A stretch of 64,000 bases of DNA from Xanthomarina maritima (GTDB taxonomy: Bacteria; Bacteroidota; Bacteroidia; Flavobacteriales; Flavobacteriaceae), in contig NZ_VSFC01000012.1 of the NCBI RefSeq assembly GCF_008084905.1, positions 247,912-311,911 of the forward strand, written 5' to 3'. Below the pieces are notes generated by a model. It worked only from the letters and a program-made list of their open reading frames with translations. It ran no database searches and was not told the origin of the DNA. Below, piece after piece: positions 31,413-34,388 of the stretch; position 1 is the first letter of the stretch, and the number at the start of each line of letters is the position of its first letter. The position numbers and the translations under genes are program-made.

Positions 31413-32045
31413 CTATTCCGAATCTATTACATCTTTCTCCAAATGATCTAAATATAAAATACCATAAAGATGATCTATTTCATGCTGAAAAATAACAGAA
31501 GTAAACCCTTCAATTGATTCTGTTTTATGTGTATTTTCCATCGTGTCATATTCTATTACAATTTCATAAGATCTATTGTTTAATGTTTCCGATCGATTAG
31601 GAATAGACAAACAACCTTCTGTATAGGTTTGTTTTTGTGTTGAATATTGAGTGATTTTAGGATTTAAATACACTTCAAAAGGAAATTCTTCTTTATCAAA
31701 CCTTTGAACCCAAATAATATTTTTTAAAACACCTACCTGAGGAGCAGCAATACCAATACCTAAGGACATACTATCTCTTACAGTTCTATATAATCTATTT
31801 ACAAAATGTTGAAGTATCGGGTCGTTTGGATTTGCTTTAACATTAGAACTTATTGTTCTTAATAACAAGGAATCTGATTTGTTATTTATTTTAAAAACAC
31901 GCATTGGAATGGTACTATCTCCTAGCATGATTAAATTAATTTCTGATTGAGTAAAACTGATATTATTTTTATGTCTAGTACTAGAACAAGCAAGCACTAA
32001 AAAATTAACACTTAAAAATAACAATGAGTTAAATAGAAACTTCAT
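31413..32045 (-). CDS. Peptide deformylase carrying a lipoprotein signal
   Basis: Removes the formyl group from N-terminal formyl-methionine. I start it at the ATG at 32045 (210 residues): from there the N-terminus is a clean lipoprotein signal with lipobox VLAC and the cysteine at residue 20. A longer frame to 32123 would overlap the upstream gene. The catalytic core is complete: GIGIAAPQ at 96-103, EGCLS with C145, and HEIDH with H188, E189 and H192. Ordinary deformylases are cytosolic and lack any signal, so this is an exported form in addition to whatever housekeeping copy exists elsewhere. One base separates it from the exported PPP phosphatase upstream. Confidence 0.85.
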   Translation of the reverse strand: MKFLFNSLLFLSVNFLVLACSSTRHKNNISFTQSEINLIMLGDSTIPMRVFKINNKSDSLLLRTISSNVKANPNDPILQHFVNRLYRTVRDSMSLGIGIAAPQVGVLKNIIWVQRFDKEEFPFEVYLNPKITQYSTQKQTYTEGCLSIPNRSETLNNRSYEIVIEYDTMENTHKTESIEGFTSVIFQHEIDHLYGILYLDHLEKDVIDSE

Positions 32046-32046
32046 T

Positions 32047-33132
32047 TTAATCTGAACTAACAGTTTCTTTTTTAAAAGACTCCTCTTTACCTTCCATAGT
32101 ACCTCGAATATATTTTTTGCCATTTATTAACAATACCTCACCATAAACACCATTTTTAATACTTGAATCAACTCCAAATATTTTTTCATTATAAAGCTGA
32201 ACAACCTCTTCGTTAGAACAATGACCAACAATAATATGTTTTGAATTTATTTCTTTTAATATTTCTTTAATTTCACTTTCAGGCAAGTTATCGTTAAAAT
32301 AACCTCTATACCAAATTGGTCCTGAAGACCCATAGTAATTAATGTAAAATGGAGTTTCTTTTAATTGGTCTTTAGGTACATCTATAGACTCTCTCATTAA
32401 TTTATTGACGCTATCTATATTATAACCCAAATCAAGAAACGCTTTTGATAAACCTCCATGTACATAGGTGTCTTTATTAATTTTTAAAACAGTTGGTTTC
32501 GATCTTAACCAACGTCCTAAAACCGTTTGATTATTAAATAAATCTGTATAATTGGTTTTTAATAAATATGAAGTCACTCTATATTTACTGTTTAAATATC
32601 TTAAATCTTTACGCAGAATCATGTATTCATGATTCCCTAAAGTAAAGTGAACTTTGCCTCCGCTCTTTAAAGCTTGTTGTTCTAAATGATAAACAAACCA
32701 AAGCGTTTCTGTTACTTTTGGTCCACGATCGAAAATATCACCAACTATCACTAGATGTCCACTTCCTAAAGTCCAATTTAAGTTGCTATCAATAACCTTA
32801 TTGTTTTTCAGAATCTCAATGGCTAAATCAAATTGGCCATGTATATCGCTTAATACCACTATGTTGTCAACATCTTCAAATATTGCTTCTTCAGGATGGA
32901 ATTCTGTTTTATAAGCATCAATAGGCAATTCTTTAGTAATAACTTCTCCATCAATAATGCTTTTTTCAATTAACACGTCTTTTTTAATAAACACATAAGG
33001 ACCATCATTTATTTTAATACTATCTGCCTTAATTCTATTATCTATAGAATCATTCTCATTTAATACTTGTGAGTACGAATTAAAAGATATAAAAAACAGG
33101 ATAAGGAAAATGATATTTAATTTTCTAAACAT
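32047..33132 (-). CDS. Exported PPP-family metallophosphatase, Shewanella-like type
   Basis: A phosphoprotein phosphatase-type metalloenzyme of 361 residues, started at the ATG at 33132 because a signal peptide follows at once (IIFLILFFISFNSYSQ). The longer frame to 33228 adds an unconserved tail. The PPP signature motifs are all there in order: SDIHGQFD, GDIFDRGP, GNHEYMIL, then YVHGGLS and IIVGHCS. The set resembles the bacterial Shewanella-like PPP group, whose members act on phosphotyrosine or phosphoserine in peptides. Export to the periplasm is predicted from the signal. It is translated into the deformylase gene with one base between stop and start, which implies a joint function. Confidence 0.82.
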   Translation of the reverse strand: MFRKLNIIFLILFFISFNSYSQVLNENDSIDNRIKADSIKINDGPYVFIKKDVLIEKSIIDGEVITKELPIDAYKTEFHPEEAIFEDVDNIVVLSDIHGQFDLAIEILKNNKVIDSNLNWTLGSGHLVIVGDIFDRGPKVTETLWFVYHLEQQALKSGGKVHFTLGNHEYMILRKDLRYLNSKYRVTSYLLKTNYTDLFNNQTVLGRWLRSKPTVLKINKDTYVHGGLSKAFLDLGYNIDSVNKLMRESIDVPKDQLKETPFYINYYGSSGPIWYRGYFNDNLPESEIKEILKEINSKHIIVGHCSNEEVVQLYNEKIFGVDSSIKNGVYGEVLLINGKKYIRGTMEGKEESFKKETVSSD

Positions 33133-33350: not shown

Positions 33351-34388
33351 ATGAAAAAATTTATGTTTTTTATTACAGCTCTAGTCCTGGGTGGATTAAC
33401 TGTTAGTGCGTCAACTACCAACCAACCAAAACAATTTGATAATACAACAACATGGAGTGGTTATGGTAATTCTTTCATATTTGTTGAAAATGGCATTGAG
33501 TTTTCAATTTTCCCAGATGGACAATTTGATTTTTACATGCCTTCATACATATCTAATGTTAATGTGTATGTTCCAGGAATAAGTATTAGCTTTAATTCAG
33601 GTTATGACTATAATCCATATTTACAATATGATGAATTTGGAGCAGTAATTCAAATAGAACGTGTACCAATCTATTATGATTATTATGGACGAGTTTCAAA
33701 AATTGGAAATGTTTTTATAAACTATAACAGTTTTGGTTATGTAACTCAAGTTGGAGGCCTTTTTATTCATTATAATAGGTTTTATAAATATTCTCATTAC
33801 ACAGGATATATAAATGCTTATAACAGATATTATGTTTACAGACCTTGGCATGCTTATTATAGAATTCCAGCTTATAATCATTGTGTGGTTTATCATACTC
33901 CTTACAGACAGAATTATGCTCCTAAAAGATATGCATACTCAAAACCTTATGCTAATAATTACAGACGAACAACTGCTGTTGCAAGTAGACGAGGAAACAC
34001 CATTACTAGACAAAGTGAATTAGCAACAAGACCTAGTTATACAAATAATTCTCCTAGACGAAATATTGAGAATAAACAACCTAGTAGATCAAATAATGTG
34101 TCTCAAACCAGAGATCGTTCTCAAGTAAAATCTACTAGATCTAATAATCAATTAGAATCTAAGTCAAGAAAGGTATCAAATGATTCTAAATCACGTAATG
34201 TTTCTAATAAAAATTCGACTAGAACTAATAATCAGATAGCTTTTCAAACTAGAAAGCAATCTAATAATGTTAAAACTACTAGGTCTAATGTTAAAAATAA
34301 TGATATTAAAAAACCAAATAGTAATGAATATCGTAAATATAATAAAGGAAACAAAGAAATAGCTTCAAACACTAGAAGCAAAAGATAA
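33351..34388 (+). CDS. Exported Tyr-rich repeat protein with basic low-complexity tail
   Basis: A 345-residue protein of unknown function. A signal peptide (cleavage near VSAS) is followed by a folded-looking region to residue 92. Four to five tandem 16-residue repeats then run from Y93 to about 156, of the form Y[D/N]xFGxVxxIGxVxIx. A Tyr-rich stretch follows (AYNRYYVYRPWHAYYRIPAY). From about 200 to the end there is a basic, Ser/Asn/Arg-rich disordered tail with recurring TRSNN and SRxVSN units. The tail suggests binding to an acidic polymer or the cell surface; this is inference. There is no T9SS sorting domain. It stands alone, divergent from the phosphatase operon. Confidence 0.65.
   Translation: MKKFMFFITALVLGGLTVSASTTNQPKQFDNTTTWSGYGNSFIFVENGIEFSIFPDGQFDFYMPSYISNVNVYVPGISISFNSGYDYNPYLQYDEFGAVIQIERVPIYYDYYGRVSKIGNVFINYNSFGYVTQVGGLFIHYNRFYKYSHYTGYINAYNRYYVYRPWHAYYRIPAYNHCVVYHTPYRQNYAPKRYAYSKPYANNYRRTTAVASRRGNTITRQSELATRPSYTNNSPRRNIENKQPSRSNNVSQTRDRSQVKSTRSNNQLESKSRKVSNDSKSRNVSNKNSTRTNNQIAFQTRKQSNNVKTTRSNVKNNDIKKPNSNEYRKYNKGNKEIASNTRSKR
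33627..33818 (+). repeat. Four tandem 48-base (16-residue) coding repeats
   Basis: Translated copies are YDEFGAVIQIERVPIY, YDYYGRVSKIGNVFIN, YNSFGYVTQVGGLFIH and YNRFYKYSHYTGYINA, with a fifth, weaker copy behind. The protein period is exact while the DNA copies have diverged, so this is an old repeat kept by selection on the protein. Confidence 0.75.

Follow-up and report, generated by a model that had tools for sequence, protein, structure and literature searches.

A peptide deformylase predicted to be an exported lipoprotein in Xanthomarina maritima and other Bacteroidota

Textbooks describe peptide deformylase (PDF), which is also a drug target, as acting in the cytosol at the first step of N-terminal processing; the cytosolic location is a feature of the known enzymes that lies outside the enzymatic definition of PDF. 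No exported or secreted PDF was found in the papers searched, which exclude most subscription journals, and the enzyme described here is, by its location and its clade, a variant without a description in those papers. Regarding possible substrates, binding of the SRP prevents signal sequences from being deformylated, and a retained formyl group has been proposed for N-out membrane proteins (PMC5454389), so that endogenous substrates exist for a deformylase located outside the cytoplasm.

The window analyzed here, a stretch of 64,000 nucleotides from Xanthomarina maritima, encodes on its minus strand a protein of 210 residues (P0001, 31413..32045) which is, by motifs, profile matches and fold, a peptide deformylase. 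The three motifs, searched as GxGxAAPQ, EGCxS and QHExDH, are complete in sequence and alignment: GIGIAAPQ at residues 96-103 (31737..31760, minus strand), EGCLS at residues 143-147 with the metal-ligand Cys145 (31605..31619, minus strand) and QHEIDH at residues 187-192 with the two metal-ligand histidines and the catalytic Glu189 (31470..31487, minus strand). In profile searches, the protein matched the Pfam family PF01327 (2.3e-34, 118.7 bits against a cut-off of 22.8) and scored above the cut-off of the peptide deformylase equivalog TIGR00079 (109.2 against 103.95). Its AlphaFold2 model (mean pLDDT 87.6) assigns approximately residues 45-209 to the PDF domain and superimposes on the actinonin-bound Acinetobacter PDF 6jf3 with a Z score of 21.0 (1.3 Å over 143 residues). 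The N-terminus, MKFLFNSLLFLSVNFLVLA followed by CSS, reads by inspection as a lipoprotein signal peptide (31986..32045, minus strand) whose lipobox cysteine, Cys20 (VLA-C), comes after a hydrophobic segment, while residues 21-44 form a tether in the model, i.e., a linker of roughly 25 residues. From this signal the protein is predicted to be exported. The complete active site and clean lipobox read in the initial annotation are thus confirmed by the motifs, both profiles and an invariant lipid cysteine. A longer upstream start (to 32123) was rejected because it overlaps the neighboring gene and homologs give it no support, as was a phage or plasmid origin, the best phage matches being cyanophage and Vibrio phage PDFs at ~33% identity and the plasmid matches lying below 40%, with no close relative in either.

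Upstream of this gene, with a single base (32046) between its stop codon and the PDF start as had been noted initially, lies the gene of a predicted exported PPP phosphatase (P0002, 361 aa, 32047..33132, minus strand). The protein matches PF00149, aligns with the Shewanella PPP phosphatase 2z72 at 273 bits, contains the motifs GDIFDRG and GNHE and begins with what is by inspection a signal peptide, MFRKLNIIFLILFFISFNSYS. The low dN/dS values of the phosphatase (0.15) and of the exported PDF (~0.12-0.16, window against two relatives) indicate that both are under purifying selection. Beside the phosphatase, 33351-34388 of the plus strand encodes an exported Tyr/Asn-rich protein of 345 aa with no Pfam match, and L034 and L053 have a similar gene in the corresponding position.

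The same genome contains, on another contig (G000:C20, L001:1408-1998), a canonical and signal-free PDF. The initial annotation had advised looking for such a copy and had named the lack of any other deformylase as the main finding that would speak against its reading; with the second copy present, this objection falls away. Canonical PDFs were moreover found in 100/100 Flavobacteriaceae genomes (a set holding nearly one genome per genus), including all 16 that have an exported PDF. The possibility that the window gene is the genome's only or housekeeping PDF, its start having been called wrongly, was hence rejected, a canonical PDF being present and the N-termini aligning as lipoproteins in 15 sequences. 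Predicted export, a second copy and a complete active site call together for a substrate other than nascent chains, in support of what had been argued from the sequence initially. As a side observation on this Flavobacteriaceae genome (G000), no SusD_RagB protein was found in it.

Within the Flavobacteriaceae set, a lipoprotein PDF occurs in the window genome and in 15 of the 99 others, with 60-73% identity and one broken copy (G049). This patchy distribution, about 15% of the genera, implies that the exported PDF is not essential. An alignment search brought the family to some 80 named loci in Bacteroidota, with two Ignavibacteria MAGs besides; they include Flavobacteriaceae (such as Algibacter, Tamlana, Flavivirga and Leeuwenhoekiella), Saprospiraceae, Cyclobacteriaceae, Reichenbachiella, Cryomorpha and Lewinella (names being those of the records, many of which are MAGs). 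The lipobox pattern was matched in 90 of the 95 loci with flanks; of the five others, L047 is broken, L080 and L118 have visible lipoboxes that the pattern missed, and L109 and L113 have uncertain starts. The cytosolic, ribosome-associated location expected of a PDF is therefore not what this family presents, a lipoprotein signal being found in at least 90 of 95 loci. The lipid Cys20 is invariant (15/15 aligned exported PDFs), the motif residues vary little or not at all among 47 diverse members, and the metal-ligand Cys145 is found in 47/47 aligned rows. In a quick tree, a strongly supported branch (SH-aLRT 97) separates the exported PDFs from the cytosolic PDFs of Bacteroidota. By these sequence comparisons, the exported PDF is genuine and conserved. 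A basal member with no visible signal peptide (L164:1441-2031, minus strand) branches close to the root of the clade in the quick tree. The gene is broken in two genomes, by a frame break in G049 (L047:7989-8617, minus strand) and, in Lewinella sp. JB7 (L109 near 7019), by an in-frame stop close to the beginning of the gene, reflecting either gene loss or sequencing error.

Regarding the side of the membrane on which the anchor resides, surface lipoproteins of Bacteroidetes carry an export signal (LES) made of acidic residues at positions +2 to +6 (PMC5080379). At least two acidic residues at these positions were found in 0/90 lipobox-bearing exported PDFs, and the absence of the LES from all 90 predicts an anchor facing the periplasm. 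Of the two locations envisaged initially, the periplasmic one is thus retained as a prediction, while surface exposure is unlikely and was set aside.

A PDF related to the exported clade is present in about 35 genomes of a second family of the same order, probably Weeksellaceae. The members read begin with an ordinary Sec-type signal peptide where the exported clade has its lipobox. Their second motif is EGDLS throughout, an aspartate replacing the metal-ligand cysteine of EGCLS, while HEIDH is kept; cysteine is entirely absent from 31 of 32. This change of ligand (L136-L142, L165-L189) is kept across at least three genera. Since an iron PDF is inactivated by oxidation of its cysteine ligand together with the iron (PMC10751367), a cysteine-free, Asp-ligated form would suit an oxidizing compartment, and both changes may fit an oxidizing periplasm. 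If so, this clade would represent a natural experiment in which an oxidation-sensitive metal enzyme has been moved into the periplasm. Signal-peptide PDFs that are non-lipoproteins are also found in other Bacteroidota families.

A candidate partner is provided by one genome (G1013), in which, on an 8.2-Mb contig, a single ORF of 830 aa (L203:5723-8215, plus strand) combines a signal peptide, a PDF (51-197) and an M1 peptidase with the site HEAIHx18E. By the classical fusion argument, and with the weight of one genome, this fusion argues for a functional link of an exported deformylase with an exported peptidase. Stand-alone exported orthologs of the M1 half, with 53-55% identity to it and beginning at the corresponding point, occur in G736 and G995 (both with separate lipoprotein PDFs), G061, G038 and the window genome; in the latter, the gene (G000:C27, L215:1402-3228) encodes the signal peptide MKKIFLFFFSLSFLLTTAYS and is not adjacent to the PDF. 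A search with the M1 half of the fusion found no M1 gene of that subfamily near other exported PDFs, and a close ortholog is absent from G808, G456 and G360, all of which have an exported PDF. The motif GGMEY, which replaces the classical GxMEN, makes exopeptidase activity less than certain. The exported M1 peptidase is, on this comparative evidence, a better candidate partner of the PDF than the PPP phosphatase, and the fusion suggests that capped peptides may also be processed outside the cytoplasm. In another genome, a signal peptide, a DUF1684 domain and a PDF are fused (L135:1423-2655, minus strand), a hint that DUF1684 might work with the exported deformylase.

The explanation that we favor, with slightly better than even confidence as a whole, is that of a periplasm-facing, catalytically competent PDF uncapping formyl-Met peptides for exported aminopeptidases. 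It builds on an export signal, PDF motifs, a predicted PDF fold, a cytosolic second PDF, conservation and one PDF-M1 fusion, all read from sequence and comparison, and from these we infer periplasmic orientation, activity, substrate and a role in peptide salvage. The change of metal ligand in the cysteine-free sister family also speaks for this explanation. Held by its lipid anchor and linker, most likely at the periplasmic face of the outer membrane, the enzyme would remove the formyl group from N-formyl-Met peptides, or from the N-termini of proteins, that the cytosolic PDF had missed. Cleaved signal peptides, N-out membrane protein ends or imported formyl peptides are candidate substrates; formyl peptides imported from lysed cells are possible and, here, indistinguishable from endogenous ones. 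Once the formyl cap is removed, exported aminopeptidases, foremost the M1-family peptidase, would degrade the peptides. If this is true, the conserved exported PDF means that some bacteria handle formyl groups outside the cytoplasm, and it offers a gene with which to test it.

Counting against a role in peptide salvage, the most recurrent neighbors of the exported PDF are rod-elongation genes and not peptidases. Of 90 distinct loci, 44 have the PDF behind mreC-mreD-pbp2-rodA in the same orientation, and in 42 of these the gap is at most 72 nt (MreC, PBP2, RodA and GldB/GldC being identified by Pfam). The rodA side of the PDF is the tighter one, since gldC, found downstream in 28 loci, lies more than 250 nt away in 10/28. 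Such an arrangement speaks for the main rival explanation, in which the exported PDF would act in cell-wall growth, either as a hydrolase associated with the envelope or by regulating the Rod (elongasome) complex, and formyl peptides would not be its substrate. We consider it improbable, however, as these loci probably all belong to one Flavobacteriaceae clade whose gldC-gldB-nadE surroundings are often syntenic anyway, the mre operon of the window genome itself (L158) contains no PDF and is followed by a DUF4136 gene instead, and the exported PDF retains every residue that a PDF uses for formyl binding and catalysis. Other lineages place the PDF elsewhere, and outside the rod-operon clade no neighbor shared across lineages was found; gamma-glutamyltranspeptidase, penicillin amidase, sulfatase and beta-lactamase-family hydrolases each occur as single cases. 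For GldB itself (L036:5725-6705, plus strand), a weak match to DUF2268, a family of predicted Zn-proteases, was seen (0.00012), which falls below the cut-off. Gene order speaks even less for the peptide-processing unit proposed in the initial annotation, whereby the PDF and the PPP phosphatase would jointly process exported phospho- or formyl-peptides. The one-base spacing in the window has its counterpart in LYZ1037 (L053), where the two genes directly abut, but this is the only such case among 95 ortholog loci. None of 15 other genomes has the phosphatase gene at 8 kb or less from the exported PDF; a relative exists in 19/100 Flavobacteriaceae genomes and is beside the exported PDF in the window genome only, the two being far apart in G034, G070 and G060, while G038, of the same genus, has the exported PDF and lacks the phosphatase. 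As the pair is not conserved across flavobacteria, we rejected it as a functional unit and see very little chance that the two proteins act together.

The two further rivals concern the chemistry of the enzyme. A hydrolase that now acts on a different N-acyl or amide substrate, keeping the PDF fold while losing the deformylase role, would agree with an export for which the papers searched hold no described precedent, with the changed metal site of the Asp-ligand clade and with the fusion of one member to a domain of unknown function (DUF1684). The clade of the window protein nevertheless keeps the residues that define motifs 1-3, and the protein itself passes the TIGR00079 equivalog cut-off, which makes such a shift about as unlikely as the role in cell-wall growth. 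Far less plausible is a periplasmic decoy that would bind actinonin-like PDF inhibitors and shield the cytosolic enzyme: the model resembles actinonin-bound PDFs and a sponge could well take the form of an additional exported copy, but nothing in the neighborhoods inspected suggests antibiotic resistance, the catalytic Glu189, which a decoy would not need, is strictly conserved, and the peptidase fusion would be left unexplained.

The uncapping of formyl-Met peptides in the periplasm may tentatively be extended to a Bacteroidota system of extracytoplasmic N-terminal processing, although we regard this broader proposal as rather doubtful. An exported PDF, either a Cys-ligated lipoprotein or an Asp-ligated, Cys-free protein suited to the oxidizing periplasm, would clear with an exported M1 aminopeptidase the formylated signal peptides and the N-out ends of membrane proteins, and would in one lineage be co-expressed with the wall-elongation operon.

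Finally, compared with the known class I PDFs (PF01327, TIGR00079), such as the Acinetobacter type b enzyme 6jf3 and the Leptospira enzyme 1sv2, the window PDF has the same fold, three motifs and Cys-His-His metal site, and differs by its N-terminal lipoprotein signal and tether and by its predicted exported compartment. Unlike the cytosolic PDFs of Bacteroidota, it belongs to a separate clade and is not the housekeeping copy. The neighboring phosphatase, by its 273-bit match, PPP motifs and signal peptide, is an ordinary member of the Shewanella-like PPP phosphatases (2z72, 1v73, 2zbm), its coupling to a PDF being local to this species and LYZ1037. As to the exported M1 aminopeptidases (PF01433; closest solved relative 3cia), the candidate partner shares with them the HExxHx18E site and the signal peptide, and in one case such a peptidase is fused with an exported PDF, whereas the M1 protein of the window genome is encoded away from the PDF and has GGMEY instead of GxMEN.
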